Of a DNA stretch of 64,000 nt, positions 1,662 through 10,691 are shown in pieces (position 1 is the first letter of the stretch; each line of letters opens with the position of its first letter). The position numbers and the translations under genes are program-made. Under the pieces are notes generated by a model. The model saw only the letters and a program-made list of their open reading frames with translations, did no database searches and was not told the origin of the DNA. The stretch is from Thermanaeromonas toyohensis ToBE. Lineage in GTDB: Bacteria; Bacillota; DSM-521; Neomoorellales; Neomoorellaceae. Where the stretch lies: positions 1,941,587 to 2,005,586 of the forward strand of contig NZ_LT838272.1 of assembly GCF_900176005.1 (NCBI RefSeq), written 5' to 3'.

Positions 1662-1744
1662 AGGTGTTGCCTCCTTCTTAATTTTTGGTAGTTATGACTT
1701 ATCTTGCTTTAAGTTAAATAAACTTAAATCTAAAATTAGGCTTA

Positions 1745-1784
1745 AAATAAGCTTAAAATAAAAGGGAGCACGTTTCTGCTCCCT
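1745..1784 (-). terminator. Intrinsic terminator in the MCP leader (riboswitch expression platform)
   Basis: On the minus strand GGGAGCA and TGCTCCC form a 7-bp stem around a 6-nt loop, followed by TTTTATTTTAAG. It lies between the aptamer and the receptor start codon, as in a transcription-terminating riboswitch. No obvious competing antiterminator with the P1 strand was found for this copy. Confidence 0.75.
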
Positions 1785-1789
1785 CCTAC

Positions 1790-1890
1790 CTCGATGCACC
1801 GGCAGCCTGGCAGCCTTAGCTTAGATCCCGCCTTAGGCCCATGACTTTGCGCCCCGCCCTTTCGAACGGTTTGCCCTTCTCGGTGCAGAT
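1790..1890 (-). promoter_or_regulatory. c-di-GMP-I (GEMM) riboswitch aptamer upstream of the MCP gene
   Basis: The minus strand carries the GEMM signature in order: AGGGCAAACC, a GAAA tetraloop helix, GGGCGCAAAG, GGGCCTAAGG, then the GCC...GGCTGCCGG receptor helix. The outer P1 helix is explicit: TGCACCG near 1881-1887 pairs with CGGTGCA near 1795-1801. This copy is diverged from the other two aptamers in the window. Known ligand of the family is c-di-GMP (some members bind cGAMP). Confidence 0.88.
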
Positions 1891-1959
1891 AACGTACCTT
1901 TCCTGTAGCCTTCTAACTTACTCAGCCCTTATCTCTTATTTTATTTTGCTGTTATTTTA

Positions 1960-2080: not shown

Positions 2081-3853
2081 TTACCTCCAAGGTATAACAT
2101 CTATTTCACCTTCCGCGTTAAGGCGAAGCCTTATTTTTCTTTCTTCCCTGGTGAAGGGATAGATTCGGACACCTATTTTTACAAAACTATTTTCATAGGC
2201 ATGTTCGATAGTGACTACGCCTTTTTCCTGTACCGTGACTGTACTTTTGGCTCCGCCCCGGGTGCCCAGTTCCCTTACGTACACATCCTCTCCTGCCTTT
2301 ATTTCCCCGCCTCTAAAGGCGCCATGGATTATAACCTTTTTTCCTGCTTCGATATAAGAATTGTCACAACCTATACGGCTTACAGTTACGCTTCCTGAGG
2401 CGATAATTTTGGAGTTAAGCACATAGCCCACAGTCACGTTGCCGTTTTCTGTTTTGTCCTGGATTTGAATATGGCCTAGCAATTCCATAGCCTCATTGTA
2501 CAGTTCCTCTATCTCTTCGATGCTGACTATGGCAAGGGGTAGGCGTACTAACTTATACTCCATGTTATTTAAAAACCGGGTGAGGGGAGGATACTCAAAG
2601 GGGAGCTTCTTGACGTACTCTCTAAGGACCTGAATAGATGCTGGAATACCAGGATACTTCCGTTCAAGCAACAATTTGACTAAAGGGCCGATGGTGCTTC
2701 CTGTGTACTTCTCTTTAAGCTGGTTGAGGGCCAGAAATAGCTCTTCTATCTGAGATGATATCCTCTTTAGGAGGGGAAGACCGTTCCTTAGGAGAGCGAA
2801 CTTCTCTCCAGCGATTATAGTTGAAGCGTGGACGTTGCCCTTGATCACTACAGAATCCTGGGCTTTGATACTGGCTCCAGAAACCGTGCCCTCTATGACG
2901 GCGCTTTCTCCCGCTTCGACCCGCATCCCCTCTAGTACATTACCCTTGACTATAATATCGCCTGCAAATATGATGTGACCAGAGGACTTATCGACGTCTT
3001 CATCGTGATGCAATACATTAATGATCTTTATCTCCATTCCTCTAGGTATATGGATGGCTACCGGCCTACCTGGTTTGGCAGCTACAACTTCTAATCCTTC
3101 CTTTGTTAATGTAGTGCCCTCCCCAGCTTTCAAGGCTACATCTTGGGGTTCGGGGGGAAGGATTATATTTCCTTTTAGATCCCGGCCAGGTTTTCCAGGT
3201 TGAGCAGGATGCTTGCGGGCGAGAACCTGGCCTGGTACGGCAGAAGTATAAACAAAACGCTGGAGCAAGTCTACTTTCTCTTCCGTAGAGCCCTCTATCT
3301 TTATTTTTTCCTCTAAACTGAAAAGGAGTTCAATTTTGGCATCTTGACCAGGTTCTGGAGGGGTACCTCTAGCTATAATTACTTCTTTCTCTTCTGGGTT
3401 GACAAACAGGCTCCTTATAGTTTCCCAATCGATACCATGTACGACACCTAGTTGTCTCAGTTTATCGGTTAATTCACCCAACGTTACCGGTGATAGAACT
3501 TCCTCAATAGGTATTCCTTCTAACCTTAAGATTCGGGCCGGAGGGGAATCTTTAAGAACATATCTGATACGGCGATAGGGTTTTAATTTTAATATCGCCA
3601 CCATGTTATCCGGAGTTACTTCTAGAGACCAGCTCCCTTCACTCTCTTCTGTCAAGGTAGTAACCACCACATGGTCGTGGACAGTAACAGGGATGGGCTG
3701 GTTAATCTCGAGATATTCCCGCTCGTTTACTTGTAGTTTTACTCCCGGCCCCAGGACAACAACAGGATAAGGGCCGTCAGGGGGATGGTGTACTAGAAGC
3801 TTTCCCCCTTGCAAAGCCGCATATACCGAAAGATTATCATAATAAGTGTTCAT
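2081..3853 (-). CDS. FapA / DUF342 family protein
   Basis: DUF342 (flagellar assembly protein A-like) protein, 590 residues. The family is built of a variable N-terminal region and a long polymerising-type beta-helix; its biochemical role is not settled, but it is linked to motility and surface signalling in Gram-positives. Visible here: N-terminal domain to about residue 200, then the conserved proline/glycine-rich PGKPGRDLKG stretch, then alternating valine/glycine repeats of a right-handed beta-helix (for example AGDIIVKGNVLEG, IEGTVSGASIKAQDSVVIKG), a helical insertion near 360-450 and further beta-helix to the end. No signal peptide, so cytosolic. A c-di-GMP riboswitch with terminator precedes it, making it a c-di-GMP-controlled gene. 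Downstream lies the MCP transcription unit in the same direction. Confidence 0.9.
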   Translation of the reverse strand: MNTYYDNLSVYAALQGGKLLVHHPPDGPYPVVVLGPGVKLQVNEREYLEINQPIPVTVHDHVVVTTLTEESEGSWSLEVTPDNMVAILKLKPYRRIRYVLKDSPPARILRLEGIPIEEVLSPVTLGELTDKLRQLGVVHGIDWETIRSLFVNPEEKEVIIARGTPPEPGQDAKIELLFSLEEKIKIEGSTEEKVDLLQRFVYTSAVPGQVLARKHPAQPGKPGRDLKGNIILPPEPQDVALKAGEGTTLTKEGLEVVAAKPGRPVAIHIPRGMEIKIINVLHHDEDVDKSSGHIIFAGDIIVKGNVLEGMRVEAGESAVIEGTVSGASIKAQDSVVIKGNVHASTIIAGEKFALLRNGLPLLKRISSQIEELFLALNQLKEKYTGSTIGPLVKLLLERKYPGIPASIQVLREYVKKLPFEYPPLTRFLNNMEYKLVRLPLAIVSIEEIEELYNEAMELLGHIQIQDKTENGNVTVGYVLNSKIIASGSVTVSRIGCDNSYIEAGKKVIIHGAFRGGEIKAGEDVYVRELGTRGGAKSTVTVQEKGVVTIEHAYENSFVKIGVRIYPFTREERKIRLRLNAEGEIDVIPWR

Positions 3854-3944: not shown

Positions 3945-4042
3945 AAGGCCCCCACCGGCAACCCGGCTGCCATAGCCCTTAAAAGCCTTAGGCCCGTGGC
4001 TTTGCGCCCCCGCCTTTCGGCGGGTTTGCCCTTAAACGGTAG
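3945..4042 (-). promoter_or_regulatory. c-di-GMP-I (GEMM) riboswitch aptamer upstream of the fapA-like gene
   Basis: Full GEMM signature on the minus strand: AAGGGCAAACC, CCGCC-GAAA-GGCGG helix, GGCGCAAAGCCACGGGCCTAA, then the GGCTATGGCAGCC and GTTGCCGGTGGGG receptor part. Positions 3950-4035 are identical over 86 nt to the aptamer at 9091-9176 on the other strand. Confidence 0.93.
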
Positions 4043-4189: not shown

Positions 4190-5878
4190 CTAGCAGATAA
4201 TCTCTGGAGAAGGCTTTCCAAAATAGTATCCCTGGCAAAGGTTTACTCCGAATCTCTTGAGTATATTACAGGCTTCTCCTGTCTCCACCCATTCAGCAAT
4301 GGGTTCTATAGCTAGGCTACGCAAAAGCGCTGCAATATGTTCGACTATCAATTTACATCTGGCACTCCGTGTAATATCTCTTATCAAGGAGCCTTCTATC
4401 TTTACAAAGTAACAGTCAAACTGACGTAGGTAGAGGAAGGAAGAAAAGCCGCTGCCAAAATCGTCTAAAGCGAGCCTCATGCCTGCATTCTGCAAATGGG
4501 TAGCAAATATGTGCACCCTGCTGACATCCCTTATAGCCTGTCTTTCGGTTAACTCAGCCACTAGCCTGTCTGGTCTGATTTTATGAGACTTAAGCAGGGA
4601 TAACAGTTTAGGTACAAGGTCTTCGCGCTCAACCTCCTGCAGGGCAAAGTTGACAAAGATCAAATATTCGGTATCTGTCTGGGTAACTTTCCAAAGGGCT
4701 TTTTCTAAGCACCTCTCCGTGAGGCTGTGTATAATATTTATGTCTTCGGCAAGTTCCGCAAAGGCTGCTGCCGGGAATATGCGGCCTTGATACTGGATTC
4801 TGGCTAGCACCTCGTAGCCTATGATATTTCCAGTTTCTATATCCACAATGGGTTGAAAATAAGGGATTACTCCTTCCGGTTTCTGGATAGCTTCCCTTAA
4901 GATAAGGCTTTTTTCGTGAAGCAACGTCAGATCTGTTGTTCCTGCATTTACATCTAGTATTACCGTCCGATTCTTTCCTAAGCGCTTAGCTTTTAGAGTA
5001 GCCATCTCCGCAGCGGCTAAGAGGTCGTTGGCAGCCGTCCCATGTAGAGGGTAGCAAGATATACCGATGCTCACCGTGACCCCAAACTCTTCCTCGATAG
5101 GTCGTTGCTGCTCTACAATTTGCCGAAAACTTTCAGCCATAGATAGAATCTCAGGGGTGTCTCTGCCTAGGACTATTACTCCAAAAGAATTACTCCCTGT
5201 CCTTGCCAATATACTCCCAACAGGAGCAAAGACTTCCTTCAAAACCTCAGCTACTACTCGTAGAACAGCATCACCTACTGCATATCCATAAAGATCATTG
5301 ATTACCTTCAAGTCATCTACATCAGCCCAAATAAGAATGAGATTTTCTTTGTGATGTTTGGCGTATTCTAGGGCCGTATCCAATTCTCTTTGAAAGTGTT
5401 CGCGGCTTAGAAGGCCGGTCAAGGGGTCTGTTTCGGAAAAGATTTTTAACATCTTTAGCGCCTCATCGTGATATCCTAAAGATACACATCCTAGTTCTAG
5501 CATGGCCCCTACAAGGAGGTCCTTTATGTCCTGCCCGTTTCCTAACGAACGATGAGTACGAATATAGTCGTTAATAAAGGTATCGGCTAAAGCTATCAAT
5601 TCCCGCAATACTTGCTCATTGGGTATCTCCTGGGTATACAAGAGACGTCCAATGTCTACAGCCTGTTGACAGGCATCCAGAAAGCAGGAAATATCACGTA
5701 CGGACTGGTGGATTTTCTCAAGCAAAACCCTGAGGTTCGAACTCAATTCGGGATTTAAAGGGGTACCTTCATATTTTCCTTGAATTATACCTAAAAGTTC
5801 AGCGAGGAAATTCTTAGAAAGCATAAATTTGTACCTACAAACCTCACTTTCCACCTTCAAGTTTATTTTCATCGGCAC
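4190..5878 (-). CDS. GGDEF-EAL protein, probable c-di-GMP phosphodiesterase
   Basis: 562-residue cytosolic protein with an N-terminal helical region (about 1-145), a GGDEF domain (about 150-310) and an EAL domain (about 325-560). The GGDEF active-site signature is replaced by GSNSF (228-232), so cyclase activity is unlikely; such domains often sense GTP. The EAL domain keeps its catalytic set: EVL (356-358), N410, E442, DDFGSG (472-477), K493, E532 and QGYYFGKP. It should hydrolyse c-di-GMP to pGpG. Last gene of the stressosome operon, overlapping the preceding cyclase gene by 35 nt; an ATG at 5824, 20 nt after the cyclase stop, is an alternative start that removes the overlap. Context pairs one cyclase with one phosphodiesterase under a single stress sensor. 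Confidence 0.9.
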   Translation of the reverse strand: MPMKINLKVESEVCRYKFMLSKNFLAELLGIIQGKYEGTPLNPELSSNLRVLLEKIHQSVRDISCFLDACQQAVDIGRLLYTQEIPNEQVLRELIALADTFINDYIRTHRSLGNGQDIKDLLVGAMLELGCVSLGYHDEALKMLKIFSETDPLTGLLSREHFQRELDTALEYAKHHKENLILIWADVDDLKVINDLYGYAVGDAVLRVVAEVLKEVFAPVGSILARTGSNSFGVIVLGRDTPEILSMAESFRQIVEQQRPIEEEFGVTVSIGISCYPLHGTAANDLLAAAEMATLKAKRLGKNRTVILDVNAGTTDLTLLHEKSLILREAIQKPEGVIPYFQPIVDIETGNIIGYEVLARIQYQGRIFPAAAFAELAEDINIIHSLTERCLEKALWKVTQTDTEYLIFVNFALQEVEREDLVPKLLSLLKSHKIRPDRLVAELTERQAIRDVSRVHIFATHLQNAGMRLALDDFGSGFSSFLYLRQFDCYFVKIEGSLIRDITRSARCKLIVEHIAALLRSLAIEPIAEWVETGEACNILKRFGVNLCQGYYFGKPSPEIIC

Positions 5879-6665
5879 AAACTACTTTATTTTTACCCTC
5901 CCTTTTAGCCCTGTACATAGCTTCGTCAGCACGGGCGATAAGCTCGTTTACAGATATAGCCCCTTTACCCTGGTATTCTACTGCACCTATACTTACAGTT
6001 ATGGTAGTCTCAACCTCTGGGACTAAGGCGGTAGTGGCGATCTGGGTTCGTATCCTTTCTAAAGCGATCTGGGCTTTGTCTAGGTTTGTTCCTGGCAAAA
6101 TAACCAGGAATTCTTCTCCACCGTAGCGGATGACTTTATCGCCGCCCCGCAAGCTTTTCTTTATAATTTTTGCTGCCGTACGCAGAGCTTCGTCGCCTAC
6201 GTAGTGACCGTATCTATCATTTAATGCTTTAAAGTTGTCTAAATCTACCATGGCTATTACTAGAGGGGTATTTTTTTCTTGAGATTCCTTTAGTAGCTGA
6301 TTGAGTAATGGATAAAGCGCTAGCCGGTTGTAAAGCCCTGTTAAGGGATCATGCTCAATACGGTCTTTAAGCTGGAGAAGAAATGTATCTATGACTACAA
6401 GGATCTGAGCCAGAAATTCCGTAGCCCTGTCGATGTAGATCCATTGGATAGAATCGCTATCCCGGCGGATACCCATAATCTCGCGCAAGGCTCTAGTGTG
6501 AATATCTAGGATATTCGCTGCTTGTACATGATTATCGTCGAGCTCGTGGGTAAGATCCTGGTAGGCTTCCAGAAGGACCCCTTCTGTCCCTCCTTCACAA
6601 ACATACCGCTCTAAGTAGTTTTTATAGGTGTTATAAAAATCTTGTGATATCAAGATTGTCCCCAC
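5844..6665 (-). CDS. Stressosome-output diguanylate cyclase (RsbU-N-like domain + GGDEF)
   Basis: Makes c-di-GMP from two GTP. 273 residues. Residues 1-95 are all-helical and resemble the N-terminal RsbT-binding domain of the RsbU phosphatase (pattern around LTHELDDNHVQAANILDIHT). Residues about 105-265 form an intact GGDEF domain: DPLTGLYNR, DLDNFKALND, GGEEF at 182-186, and the product-inhibition I-site RGGD at 173-176, five residues before GGEEF. Published Moorella thermoacetica work describes the same arrangement, in which the RsbT-like kinase activates a cyclase instead of RsbU. It overlaps rsbX upstream by 16 nt and the EAL gene downstream, so the genes are tightly coupled. Function assignment is strong; direct RsbT binding here is inferred. 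Confidence 0.92.
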   Translation of the reverse strand: MGTILISQDFYNTYKNYLERYVCEGGTEGVLLEAYQDLTHELDDNHVQAANILDIHTRALREIMGIRRDSDSIQWIYIDRATEFLAQILVVIDTFLLQLKDRIEHDPLTGLYNRLALYPLLNQLLKESQEKNTPLVIAMVDLDNFKALNDRYGHYVGDEALRTAAKIIKKSLRGGDKVIRYGGEEFLVILPGTNLDKAQIALERIRTQIATTALVPEVETTITVSIGAVEYQGKGAISVNELIARADEAMYRAKREGKNKVVCADENKLEGGK

Positions 6666-7264
6666 CTCCTCCCAATAAGGATACTGGCGTCATCTTCCTC
6701 AATACCGTAATCTTTTAGGATACCCTTAGCTAATTCCATTCCTTCGTTAGAGATGAGCAGGTGTTCCTTCGAAGGAACAAAGCTTCGCCTTATTCCATCC
6801 GAACATATCCAAAGGGTAGAATTAGGCCGCACTCTTATTTCCCGGGTTATCGGCAAAAGCTTTCGAGCTCCCACGACACCTGGCTGGGCATATAATACTT
6901 CTATTTTTCCTGGTTCTTGGAAAACCCAGCCGCGCATGTTTCCTACCATAATATAAGTTACCACTGGACCTGAAAAAGAGCCAAGAAAAAGAGCACAGCC
7001 CCTGTGGCGGGCTGCAGTAGTTTCTAACTTTGCAAATAGTATCCTTAAGTTTTCCTCATGTTTGCGCATCACATTTAAAAGCTCGAGGGCACATCGGTGA
7101 GCTTCCTCCCCGTGGCCGAGGACATCTATAACCGAGGTAATAAGAGTATTTTGCGCTGCAAACATATAGCAGAGGTCGCCCCCGACTTTATAACCTGCCT
7201 TTGGTCTCCAAGAGCTCCATAAGCTCCATCCATGGGCGTGCAGATCTTGGGAAGATAATTTCAA
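6650..7264 (-). CDS. rsbX: RsbX-like PP2C phosphatase of the stressosome
   Basis: 204-residue SpoIIE/PP2C-type serine/threonine phosphatase. Metal-binding motifs are visible: VGGDLCYMF near residue 28, VIDVLGHG near 46, CSDGI near 153 and DDASILIG near 191. In the family RsbX resets the stressosome by dephosphorylating RsbS and RsbR. It starts with an ATGA overlap on the rsbT stop and its end overlaps the cyclase start, giving translational coupling. At about 200 residues it is a bare catalytic domain, as expected for RsbX rather than RsbU. Confidence 0.88.
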   Translation of the reverse strand: MKLSSQDLHAHGWSLWSSWRPKAGYKVGGDLCYMFAAQNTLITSVIDVLGHGEEAHRCALELLNVMRKHEENLRILFAKLETTAARHRGCALFLGSFSGPVVTYIMVGNMRGWVFQEPGKIEVLYAQPGVVGARKLLPITREIRVRPNSTLWICSDGIRRSFVPSKEHLLISNEGMELAKGILKDYGIEEDDASILIGRRWGQS

Positions 7265-7722
7265 AACTTGCGCCTCCTTTTTGCTGTGATAACTACTGTG
7301 CCCTTGCCCACTTTAGAATAGATAGTAAAGGAATCCATGAGGCGCTTTACACCTGAAAGTCCTATGCCTAGGCTGCGCTCATAGGTAGTGTATTCTCGGG
7401 TAAGAACTACCTCCACATCAGGGATGCCCGGGCCGCGATCAGCAGCGATGACTTCTATGCAGGGGCCCTCCTTCTCTTCTTTTTTCCTTATCATTATTCG
7501 TCCTTGGCTAGCGTAGCGATATATATTGCGGGCCAGCTCGGAGACAGCGGTAGCGATTTTAGTAACATCAGCTAGCGAAAATCCCGTTTCCTGGGCTAGT
7601 TGTTTTGCCATCTGCCTGGCTATCGCTATATCCTCTTCGCGGGTTATACGGACCACCACATCAAATTCATGTCCAGGATTATCCAGGATGGCTTCTATTT
7701 TGTCTACCTTATCTGAAGCCAC
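7261..7722 (-). CDS. rsbT: RsbT-like switch serine kinase
   Basis: GHKL-fold serine/threonine kinase, 153 residues. N-box AVSELARNIYRYA (about 59-71), G1 box ADRGPGIP (about 93-100) and G2 box GIGLSGVKRLMD (about 117-128) are all present. In stressosomes RsbT is held by RsbR/RsbS, phosphorylates them on stress, and is released to activate its target. No sigma-B, RsbV or RsbW gene is nearby; the next genes encode the phosphatase and a cyclase with an RsbT-binding-type domain, so the likely target is that cyclase. Confidence 0.93.
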   Translation of the reverse strand: MASDKVDKIEAILDNPGHEFDVVVRITREEDIAIARQMAKQLAQETGFSLADVTKIATAVSELARNIYRYASQGRIMIRKKEEKEGPCIEVIAADRGPGIPDVEVVLTREYTTYERSLGIGLSGVKRLMDSFTIYSKVGKGTVVITAKRRRKF

Positions 7723-7735
7723 TTCTTATCCACTC

Positions 7736-8089
7736 CTATAGGGAACTAGCCAACACTAAAGCATGTTCCAGATCTCGAGCTACTGTGAGCTCCTCCAATA
7801 CTATACCCATTTGGGCTAGGGTTAGGGCTACTGGAGGCTGGATGCCGCACAAGATGGTGCGGCATCCCATAAGTCTAGCCATGGCAGCGGTCTCAGAGAG
7901 GGTATAGGAAATATAACTATCTATCACTTCAACCATACGGACATCAAGAATTATAGCTTTGGCCCTGGTGCGCTCAATTTCATCCATGAGCTGCTGCTGT
8001 AGTTTCCCTACTGTCCGGTCATCTAGATCTATCTGGATAGGCACTAATAAGAAATCAGCTATTCTAAGGACGGGTACTACTTTTTCCAA
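7736..8089 (-). CDS. rsbS: RsbS-like STAS scaffold protein
   Basis: Single STAS-domain stressosome core protein, 117 residues from a TTG start at 8089. An upstream in-frame ATG at 8119 would overlap rsbR by 29 nt. TTG is preferred because AGGAGG lies about 10 nt upstream, the rsbR stop is directly upstream, and the product then starts like other RsbS proteins. Ser58 in VIDSYISYTL matches the RsbT phosphorylation site (Ser59 of Bacillus subtilis RsbS). Fourteen nt separate it from rsbT. Confidence 0.9.
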   Translation of the reverse strand: MEKVVPVLRIADFLLVPIQIDLDDRTVGKLQQQLMDEIERTRAKAIILDVRMVEVIDSYISYTLSETAAMARLMGCRTILCGIQPPVALTLAQMGIVLEELTVARDLEHALVLASSL

Positions 8090-8090
8090 G

Positions 8091-8843
8091 CTAGGAGACC
8101 TCCTCCTCGCTATTCTCATAGACCTTACTTCCAGCCAAGGTTAAAGCGAGGTGGCGTCGTTTTCTAGCTTCTTCCATGGTAATGGCAATACCACGCCGTA
8201 GGGCATCCTCTAGGTCACGAGCGATAGAGACCATCCGGAAATCGACGCCTAGCTTGACCAGGGTATGAGCAACCTCCGGCTTAATACCGGTAAGTATCAC
8301 TTCTGCCCCCAGTAGTCTTATGGCATTAAACATTTCTATTAAGAATCCACCTACTACTGTATCGATCATGGGTACACCAGTAACATCTACTATAACAACT
8401 TTAGCACGAGCCGAGCTTACTCGATTTAACAATTTTTCCGCTATATCTTGGGCCCTCTGGCTATCGATGTTCCCAATCATGGCTACCAGCAGCATATCTG
8501 TCCATATCCGGATTATGGGGGTGGCGAGTTCAGAAAGCATCTGTCTTAACTGGGAGAGTGTTTCTCTTTGTTCCTGGCGTAAGCTTGCTGAAACTTTGAT
8601 AGCCTGCTGCATTACCTCAAGCACAGGATATTCTGGTATCTCTTGGGTTATATGTATAAGCTTTTCGGTTACCTGCTCTTCGCCTAATTCCTCTATCAAC
8701 TCCCGGAGTGCTCGCGAGAGACTAGTTTCCTTTTCTTTTTCCTTTAAATTAGAAAGGGGTATCTCTACTAATTGTCTCCATAGTGCCACGTCACCTGTAT
8801 TGGCGAGTTTCTTAATTAGTTCTTCGGCCTTATTCATACCCAT
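8091..8843 (-). CDS. rsbR: RsbR-like stressosome sensor/co-antagonist
   Basis: 250 residues: N-terminal helical sensor region (about 1-105) without a recognisable globin or PAS fold, then a STAS domain (about 108-225) and a charged C-terminal tail. Thr162 (in GVPMIDTVV) and Thr194 (in EVAHTLVKLG) align with the two RsbT-phosphorylated threonines of RsbR (Thr171 and Thr205). First gene of the six-gene operon. The input signal cannot be read from sequence; the N-terminal domain should be the sensor. Confidence 0.92.
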   Translation of the reverse strand: MGMNKAEELIKKLANTGDVALWRQLVEIPLSNLKEKEKETSLSRALRELIEELGEEQVTEKLIHITQEIPEYPVLEVMQQAIKVSASLRQEQRETLSQLRQMLSELATPIIRIWTDMLLVAMIGNIDSQRAQDIAEKLLNRVSSARAKVVIVDVTGVPMIDTVVGGFLIEMFNAIRLLGAEVILTGIKPEVAHTLVKLGVDFRMVSIARDLEDALRRGIAITMEEARKRRHLALTLAGSKVYENSEEEVS

Positions 8844-9014
8844 TTTTTTCTTCCCTCCATATTAAGCAAGGTCATCATAAAAAATTAAAAAAATGTTTGG
8901 AGACCAATTTTAGACTTAATTCTACACCAAACTCTTTATTCCTCCTCAAGTTATTGCCTTGAAACCCGTTTGCTTTTAGGCCCGACTAGGCTTTCGCTAG
9001 GAAAAACTAGGGAT

Positions 9015-9043
9015 TTGTTAGGAGGAAAGGTTATTGCTATACA
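9015..9043 (+). promoter_or_regulatory. Predicted sigma-A promoter for the HD-sensor riboswitch transcript
   Basis: TTGTTA (9015-9020), exactly 17 nt, TATACA (9038-9043). It lies about 40 nt before the aptamer, in the divergent region between rsbR and the HD gene. Confidence 0.55.
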
Positions 9044-9074
9044 GTGGATTGTATGATATGTTAAAGATGAACCT

Positions 9075-9182
9075 AAATACCGCCCCTCTGTTAAGGGCAA
9101 ACCCGCCGAAAGGCGGGGGCGCAAAGCCACGGGCCTAAGGCTTTTAAGGGCTATGGCAGCCGGGTTGCCGGTGGGGAGGAGT
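9075..9182 (+). promoter_or_regulatory. c-di-GMP-I (GEMM) riboswitch aptamer upstream of the CBS-PAS-HD gene
   Basis: Same GEMM signature as at 3945-4042, with 86 identical bases (9091-9176). A P1 helix can be drawn between CCGCCCC at about 9080-9086 and GGGGAGG at 9173-9179 with one mismatch. The 3' P1 strand GGTGGGGAG (9170-9178) is perfectly complementary to CTCCCCACC (9252-9260), which overlaps the terminator. This predicts that ligand binding favours termination (an OFF switch). Confidence 0.93.
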
Positions 9183-9251
9183 TTATACTTTTACTAAAGC
9201 TTCTAGTAAGTTAGGCTGTTAAGTTAAATATATTAAATATATTCGTTCTGG

Positions 9252-9292
9252 CTCCCCACCAGGGTTGGTATTTATGCCTGGTGTATTTTTTT
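9252..9292 (+). terminator. Terminator/antiterminator platform of the HD-sensor riboswitch
   Basis: CACCAGG (9257-9263) pairs with CCTGGTG (9277-9283), followed by TATTTTTTT. The competing partner CTCCCCACC (9252-9260) shares bases with the 5' arm and matches the aptamer 3' strand over 9 bp. Confidence 0.82.
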
Positions 9293-9338
9293 CATTAACC
9301 TAAACTATTTTAGGGTTTGGGGTGATAGGAGTAAATTT

Positions 9339-10691
9339 ATGGAAAGAAGGAAATATGTGCCCATGCCTAAAGTTAAAGAGGAGAGCCTCCTATCCGAAAT
9401 AGCGAACATAATGATCAGCACAGGAAGCTATATAGTTCAAGTAGAAACCCAAACGGGGGAGCCGATAGGATGGATCGACGTCTTAGATCTGCTTAGAAGT
9501 TATGTTGATATTCCTCAACGTGAGGGTCTGAAAGCCAGGGACATCTGTAGACCCATAGAGGCCTCCGACCATTTAGATGTAGAAACTGCTGGTGAAGAAT
9601 TGAGCCAATGGCTTATACGAGATGGCCGTGTTCTCCCTTACTTTATCTCTCCAGATAAAAGTACAAGCGGCCTGCTTCTTGCCAGTGAAATTATGGCTGA
9701 GTTATTGGGCTTAAAGGAGCAAGAAACCCAAAAACGCCAAGCAGCAGAAAGGGCGTATCAAGAACTGGGTGAGCAAGTACCTCTAGGGATAGCCTTAGTA
9801 GATAGCGAAGGACATCTTTTCTATGCTAATGCTTTAGCCCAAAGGGTTATAAATGGTGCAGGAATGGTACCCCAGGATCTGCGCGAGTTAGCCTCTTCAG
9901 GTAGATCCAAGATAGTTAAATTAGATAATCGCCATTACCGCATAGGTACCCGTAAAATGAAAATGGAACCCACCAGGGCTCCAGAAGATTACTCTTTCTT
10001 GGTCATTTTTACAGACGTTACCACAGAATATAATCTGGTAGAACAGTTAAGGAGTGCCAGAGAGGAAGCGGAACTAGCCCTAGCTGTGATGTTACCAGAC
10101 CAGCGCATCACCTTAAGACTCCAGTCTATTGTGGAATATACAGATACATATGATCCTCAGACGGGTAAAATCAAAATCACAGGTGTAATTTCTCAAGGGG
10201 TATACCGGCACGTCATAAACATATTGAGACTCATTGCTGATACCTTTCGGCAAGGGTTAATGGAGTTACCTGGGATGGAAAAGAATACCCTGGTCACCGC
10301 AGCTATATTCCATGATCTCGCCAAGGTGCAGCCAGAGCTTAAAATAGGAGATTTGGTTGTCCCTCAGGAAACCTTTGAACAAGGATATCTCCATGCTTTT
10401 AGGGGGGCAGCTTTAGCAGAAGGAATCTATCGCTTGAGCCCAGAAATAGTGGAGATAATAAAATATCACCATCATAATGAAGAAGATTTGCCTTCAACTT
10501 TTCCAAATCATCTTCTGCCTATGTACCGCTTTTTTAGGCTTATCGATGGACTCTCTGCCGCCATAACCCGGCGAAACGCTACAGTAAAGATAACTGTAAA
10601 CGGGAGCAGGCTTTCAGTGATTGAGAATAATCCTGTGCCTTGTTACAATCGCTCTTTTGTTTTTGACCTTTATAGTGGAAAGACATACTAG
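9339..10691 (+). CDS. CBS-PAS-HD domain signalling protein
   Basis: 450-residue soluble signalling protein. Residues 1-125 look like a CBS-domain pair (SLLSEIANIMI...GWIDVLDLLRSY and a second, weaker copy). Residues about 140-245 form a PAS domain (VPLGIALVDSEGHLFYANA...FTDVTTEYNLVEQL). Residues about 310-415 hold an HD phosphohydrolase domain: AIFHDLAKVQ supplies the HD pair and IIKYHHHNEED a later His cluster. It is not an HD-GYP, so c-di-GMP hydrolysis is not predicted; the substrate is unknown. TAGGAG about 8 nt before the ATG supports the start. Transcription is under the upstream c-di-GMP riboswitch. It is divergent from the stressosome operon. Confidence 0.85.
   Translation: MERRKYVPMPKVKEESLLSEIANIMISTGSYIVQVETQTGEPIGWIDVLDLLRSYVDIPQREGLKARDICRPIEASDHLDVETAGEELSQWLIRDGRVLPYFISPDKSTSGLLLASEIMAELLGLKEQETQKRQAAERAYQELGEQVPLGIALVDSEGHLFYANALAQRVINGAGMVPQDLRELASSGRSKIVKLDNRHYRIGTRKMKMEPTRAPEDYSFLVIFTDVTTEYNLVEQLRSAREEAELALAVMLPDQRITLRLQSIVEYTDTYDPQTGKIKITGVISQGVYRHVINILRLIADTFRQGLMELPGMEKNTLVTAAIFHDLAKVQPELKIGDLVVPQETFEQGYLHAFRGAALAEGIYRLSPEIVEIIKYHHHNEEDLPSTFPNHLLPMYRFFRLIDGLSAAITRRNATVKITVNGSRLSVIENNPVPCYNRSFVFDLYSGKTY

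Follow-up and report, generated by a model that had tools for sequence, protein, structure and literature searches.

A predicted class I c-di-GMP OFF switch upstream of an HD-domain gene in Thermanaeromonas toyohensis

Within a 64,000-nucleotide stretch of the single-contig genome (3,334,024 bases) of the heat-loving bacterium Thermanaeromonas toyohensis (family Neomoorellaceae), hereafter the window, a gene for an HD-domain protein is preceded by a leader (the HD leader) that is very likely a class I c-di-GMP riboswitch working as an OFF switch by transcription termination, with the ligand response predicted from modelled folds. OFF is the best prediction because the strand logic of the leader matches that of the studied Cd1 OFF switch of Clostridioides difficile. 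The HD leader contains an aptamer, an intrinsic terminator and mutually exclusive pairings with computed energies (Table 1), to which we add, as what we infer, ligand binding, the direction and size of the response and use of the switch in vivo. Our searches of the openly licensed literature found no experiments on this RNA, no paper on c-di-GMP riboswitches in Moorella or on any riboswitch in Thermanaeromonas, and no paper joining a c-di-GMP riboswitch, a phosphodiesterase gene and positive feedback. The switch is clearly a fresh example of an already known type.

The HD leader and its competing helices

The aptamer matches RF01051 with 92.4 bits (gathering score 35, E 3.8e-17, model positions 1-87), which identifies it by sequence as a c-di-GMP-I riboswitch predicted to bind its ligand. 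The c-di-GMP-preferring G is present as G9095, at model position 10 of the RF01051 alignment (the lower-case a before GGC); we take this base to be the counterpart of Vc2 G20, where a G presumably confers preference for c-di-GMP over c-GAMP. Searching the whole genome returned eight c-di-GMP-I aptamers, three of them in the window. Transcription from the candidate promoter would start near 9067-9069, and a promoter scan of 8850-9350 reported no promoter on the + strand, the candidate lying below the scan threshold.

Table 1 Features of the HD leader and of the two other aptamer copies in the window
Feature	Position	Strand	Details
Candidate promoter	9034..9062	+	TTGCTA - 17 nt - TATGTT; by eye, 8/12 consensus matches, weak
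P1 5' strand (P)	9080..9090	+	pairs with 9169-9179; mismatches U9087/U9172 and G9082/A9177
c-di-GMP-I riboswitch aptamer, RF01051 (HD leader)	9086..9172	+	cmscan
Aptamer 3' strand (A)	9168..9178	+	common to aptamer/P1 and antiterminator
Spacer, P1 to antiterminator 3' strand	9180..9251	+	72 nt; time window for ligand binding
Switching strand (T)	9252..9263	+	pairs with 9168-9178, A9261 bulged
Intrinsic terminator	9257..9292	+	CACCAGG 9257-9263, 13-nt loop, CCTGGTG 9277-9283, then TATTTTTTT 9284-9292
Shine-Dalgarno-like AGGAG	9327..9331	+	by eye; 7 nt before the start codon
HD gene	9339..10691	+	450-aa protein: CBS-like N-terminus, PAS-like middle, C-terminal HD without GYP motif
c-di-GMP-I aptamer of the fapA (2081-3853) leader	3954..4040	-	second in the window; 4035-3950 identical to 9091-9176
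Third c-di-GMP-I aptamer, upstream of MCP gene	1797..1884	-	RF03167 64.3 bits, RF01051 73.3 bits; different platform

A first-pass annotation of this DNA had proposed perfect complementarity between the aptamer 3' strand GGTGGGGAG (9170-9178) and CTCCCCACC (9252-9260), with the latter sharing bases with the terminator 5' arm. The two segments are indeed exact reverse complements, and positions 9257-9260 are common to 9252-9260 and the arm at 9257-9263. RNAduplex lengthens the helix by C9168-G9263 and C9169-G9262 around a bulged A9261 (-22.6 kcal/mol), so that it takes in all seven bases of the 5' arm, more than was originally described. As computed, the antiterminator shares bases with the P1 3' strand as well as with the terminator 5' arm. 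The terminator hairpin itself (-10.5 kcal/mol) sits between the aptamer and the HD gene and was missed by our terminator scan, which allows loops of 3-8 nt only, shorter than the loop found here. A local hairpin at 9248-9262 (CTGG/CCAG; region 9245-9268, + strand) extends across the switching strand and may be in competition with the two folds.

The free ensemble of 9069-9290 has an antiterminator probability of 0.982 and a terminator probability of 0.001, and forcing P1 brings the terminator to 0.894. At 55, 65 and 70 C the terminator probability is 0.003, 0.007 and 0.013 when free and 0.876, 0.862 and 0.839 with P1 forced, and the P1-plus-terminator and antiterminator folds are mutually exclusive as computed at 37-70 C. 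Compensatory mutations of the two strands, which had been suggested as a check, were made in silico only and worked from the T side: changing the five T bases outside the terminator (9252-9256) gave a terminator probability of 0.958, and changing both strands returned it to 0.076 with the antiterminator at 0.914. They did not work cleanly from the A side, where changing 9174-9178 alone raised the terminator to just 0.239. The exclusive folds, this pattern of T-strand loss and restoration and the Cd1-like wiring all back the original proposal that ligand-stabilised P1 would free the terminator and turn the gene off.

In the predicted mechanism, strand T of ligand-free RNA would invade P1 and pair with strand A once about 9255-9260 had been transcribed, which would remove the terminator 5' arm and let RNA polymerase read through into the HD gene. 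If c-di-GMP were bound within the window of about 80 nt before T appears, P1 would be held closed, T would be left to pair with 9277-9283, and RNA polymerase would stop at the U run 9284-9292.

Ligand timing and alternative readings

In computations on the growing transcript, P1 occupancy is 0.38-0.56 for 3' ends at 9180-9250, and the antiterminator rises from 0.04 at end 9256 to 0.98 at end 9260. Without ligand, the antiterminator is more stable than the P1-locked ensemble by about 10 kcal/mol (6 in the timing model), and therefore the ligand must win by timing. We modelled this with three co-transcriptional states (apo P1, ligand-bound and antiterminator), assuming the rates and the Kd and ignoring the RNA polymerase footprint. 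Under these assumptions the HD leader has a binding window of 80 nt, and ligand at 100 uM lifts its terminator-permissive fraction from 0 to 0.991-0.999, at 37 C as at 60 C.

The same energy gap would also suit a dead or decayed switch, in which the aptamer binds c-di-GMP, the terminator or antiterminator dominates and expression of the HD gene is independent of the ligand. There is precedent in Bc1 of Bacillus thuringiensis, which is reported to bind c-di-GMP while its downstream genes are unresponsive (PMC11218506), and the leader of G012, a related genome of the same family, lacks a computed contrast. The HD locus does decay, because the HD gene is broken in G014 and in G013 the leader is detached, next to remnants of fapA and the end of the HD gene. 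Against decay in T. toyohensis, the HD gene of the window is intact, P1, T and terminator are all in place, a 9-bp match that served no use should drift, and Cd1 functions in a similar manner. We consider a dead switch improbable.

Chance complementarity, with the aptamer acting instead on translation or RNA stability, is a very remote prospect. Dinucleotide shuffling of 9181-9300 (5000 rounds) produced a Watson-Crick run of at least 9 against 9168-9180 three times, and nine times in 5000 with 9257-9300 kept. The observed duplex energy (-21.2 for the strands of the shuffle test) was equalled in 4 of 5000, a figure that rises to 30 of 5000 with the terminator region 9257-9300 kept, which is the best case for chance; CTCCCCACC itself occurs twice over both strands of the 64 kb. 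Against this reading, the Shine-Dalgarno-like site lies beyond the terminator with its U run, and T overlaps the entire terminator 5' arm. We give still less credence to an ON switch, in which ligand-bound RNA would favour readthrough. Similar aptamers act both ways, and pilM, which responds to c-GAMP, is described as an ON switch (PMC9262584); in the HD leader, however, P1 and terminator are mutually compatible, and we set the ON reading aside since the pairing of the terminator 3' arm with the aptamer 3' strand does not stand out (-6.5, with 28 of 50 others as good). An OFF switch by termination is thus the reading that we carry forward.

Other leaders in the window and in related genomes

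Blastn aligns 9091-9176 with 4035-3950 as 86 identical bases and finds nothing longer; on this sequence evidence the HD and fapA aptamer cores arose by duplication or gene conversion in the recent past. The fapA leader shares with the HD leader this core, the terminator arms CACCAGG/CCTGGTG and a CCGGTG x CACC-A-GG pairing core, and differs in its aptamer-to-terminator distance of 18 nt, against 84 nt in the HD leader. It had been annotated as a weaker version of the same design, which agrees with an antiterminator of six core pairs that 17 of 50 other regions match or beat. In the three-state model with the correct P1 register, the fapA leader is 0.85-0.97 terminator-permissive already without ligand and should therefore switch little, so that the model makes it a weak switch at best. 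Within 64 kb, one aptamer core thus comes with two platforms, long and strong in the HD leader, short and weak in the fapA leader.

The MCP gene starts at 1661 (- strand; MCPsignal E 3.4e-60), and its leader had been thought to lack an antiterminator pairing. That is true of the 3' P1 strand (-4.2, with 49 of 50 others as good) and may not be true of the 5' P1 strand, which matches the terminator: from 1896 down it forms 10 pairs (-15.7 kcal/mol) with a stretch of terminator arm and loop that runs down from 1779, a match equalled in 24 of 2000 mononucleotide shuffles. For the leader at 1730-1915 (- strand), the P1-plus-terminator ensemble is about 5 kcal/mol better than the 5'-strand antiterminator fold. 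As modelled, the MCP leader could be an OFF switch of other wiring, its antiterminator coming from the other P1 strand, or the match could be due to chance.

For comparison we gathered 68 leaders, eight from T. toyohensis itself and 60 picked among the matches listed (three from outside the family). A census of cognate pairing took in 51 of these, leaving out 17 for which no terminator was found, the hairpin was weaker than -9 kcal/mol or the distance exceeded 100 nt; for some of those kept, such as leader L007, the automatic choice of terminator was wrong. None of 50 non-cognate terminator 5'-arm regions from other c-di-GMP-I leaders pairs with the HD-leader aptamer strand as well as its own does. 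The own region beats all 50 others in 3 of the 51 leaders, and 11 of 51 have at most five non-cognate partners as good as their own, where about six would be expected by chance. With so slight an excess, strong pairing is a property of the HD leader and a few others and the design is not general; we accordingly dropped the A x T pairing as a family-wide rule. When free and P1-locked computations were compared over 66 leaders, the terminator rose by at least 0.3 in 21 and fell in one, a comparison that leans to OFF for any leader because forcing P1 mostly frees downstream strands.

The riboswitch and HD gene, divergent from an RsbR-like gene, are kept in G012, where the gene is intact, and in G014, where it is decayed (a match only from residue 119, with TAG in frame). 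Seven leaders, hand-chosen for their similar terminators and offered only spacer plus 5' arm as partner, all had their 3' P1 strand placed by RNAduplex on the terminator 5' arm, in a partly different register for G003. The pair beside the GGU x ACC/GCC core is G-C in the window HD and fapA leaders and in G001, A-U in G014 and G012, and broken (A, C) in G013. Terminator probabilities, free and P1-locked, are 0.96 and 0.99 for G012, the intact ortholog, which shows no computed switching contrast; 0.23 and 0.58 for G014; 0.92 and 0.92 for G013; 0.97 and 0.97 for G001; and 0.93 and 0.98 for G003. The window HD leader has 0.00 and 0.85 in this comparison, whose P1 register assumes no indels and is wrong for the fapA copy. 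Of 50 non-cognate regions, those that pair as well as the leader's own number 26 for G012, 7 for G014, 30 for G013, 3 for G001, 8 for G003, 17 for window fapA and 0 for window HD.

With fold contrasts and cognate counts so poor in the relatives, the strong antiterminator belongs to the window HD leader and not to the group. The G012 leader resembles it in riboswitch, terminator, HD gene and divergence from the RsbR-like gene, and differs in an antiterminator of -8.1 kcal/mol (against -22.6), a distance of 18 nt and a gene that begins about 430 nt past the aptamer. The two orthologous leaders, G012 and G014 with its decayed gene, have weak pairings and are too few for a covariation claim, and a MAFFT alignment of the leaders left the T strands unaligned. 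Sequence comparison with the relatives lends the OFF reading little support.

Two further arrangements were seen in these genomes. G013 has, on a different contig from its HD gene, a leader with 89% identity to that of the G014 HD gene (L120, 1248-1869); behind it come a broken fapA-like stretch and the final 51 bases of the HD gene. In G012, a second, convergent gene of the CBS-HD kind adjoins the first (L122, 6407-7519), and next comes an MCP gene with a c-di-GMP-I riboswitch of its own.

The HD protein and comparison with known systems

The HD protein matches PF01966 at residues 292-382 (E 3.1e-9, 37.6 bits against 22), and the HD metal-ligand positions H291, H325, D326, K329, H352, H377-H379 and D403 are invariant in all eight aligned proteins. 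It is, by these matches, a member of the HD metal-dependent phosphohydrolase superfamily. A CBS match at 8-55 (17.3 bits) falls below the cut-off of 24, and the PAS-like label was assigned by eye, without a Pfam match. The HD-GYP motif is HHExxDGxGYP; the alignment has YHHHNEEDLP in its place, and none of the 17 matches to PF13487 (HD_5) in the genome lies at the HD gene. On these two grounds we rejected the label of a plain HD-GYP phosphodiesterase. An AlphaFold2 model built from three sequences had a mean pLDDT of 66.2 and a pTM of 0.45, with the HD part too uncertain for use, and the best Foldseek matches were CBS proteins (5iip_A, E 4.5e-5). Matches to the protein at E up to 0.001 occur in 15 of 61 genomes (own included), several over part of the length.

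The HD gene is divergent from genes for STAS (RsbR-like, 8091-8843), STAS, HATPase, SpoIIE-like, GGDEF and GGDEF-EAL proteins, followed by fapA. In the window at 4190-8843 (- strand), the STAS, STAS, HATPase and SpoIIE-like genes, a set that we label stressosome-like, run into the GGDEF and GGDEF-EAL genes. An IS110-type transposase lies between the RsbR-like and HD genes in G013, and the HD gene comes after a GGDEF gene in G055 and after a GGDEF-EAL gene in Desulfovirgula thermocuniculi. Elsewhere in the T. toyohensis genome, the riboswitch of L007 (1501-2341) precedes a 211-aa stand-alone HD-GYP gene (PF13487, E 4e-36), and thus c-di-GMP riboswitches before HD-GYP genes do occur there. Behind the riboswitch of L078 in G007 there is, judged by eye, an HD-like N-terminus.

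Stressosome regulation of a diguanylate cyclase is reported for Moorella thermoacetica (PMC4976288). Speculatively, and with rather low confidence, the HD protein might lower c-di-GMP or a related dinucleotide; a protein that lowers c-di-GMP and is shut off by c-di-GMP would close a positive-feedback loop next to a cyclase under stressosome control and form a latch on c-di-GMP, and within the same-aptamer HD/fapA pair the platform alone might set the ligand response. The HD-leader switch adjoins genes predicted to make and break down c-di-GMP, and it would point to RNA-level feedback in stressosome-linked c-di-GMP signalling. It can be tested easily, as the competing helices are separable by mutations outside the terminator, and the identical aptamer on another platform 5 kb away offers a clean test of spacer length and antiterminator strength against sensitivity.

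In a review, c-di-GMP riboswitches are said to lie often upstream of target genes and not of c-di-GMP metabolic genes, and the class I c-di-GMP switches of C. difficile are described as OFF (PMC11477304). Cd1 of the C. difficile flgB operon, as described in PMC9262584 and PMC11477304, and the HD leader, as predicted, are alike in having a class I aptamer and OFF direction. PMC9262584 further describes a Cd1 aptamer 3' strand for which P1 competes with a downstream switching strand doubling as a terminator arm, and an antiterminator that opens the ligand pocket, the logic predicted for the HD leader. The binding window of Cd1 given there is 61 nt, compared with about 80 nt modelled for the HD leader. 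Cd1 controls flagellar genes, whereas the HD leader precedes an HD-domain gene beside a stressosome-like operon with diguanylate-cyclase genes.
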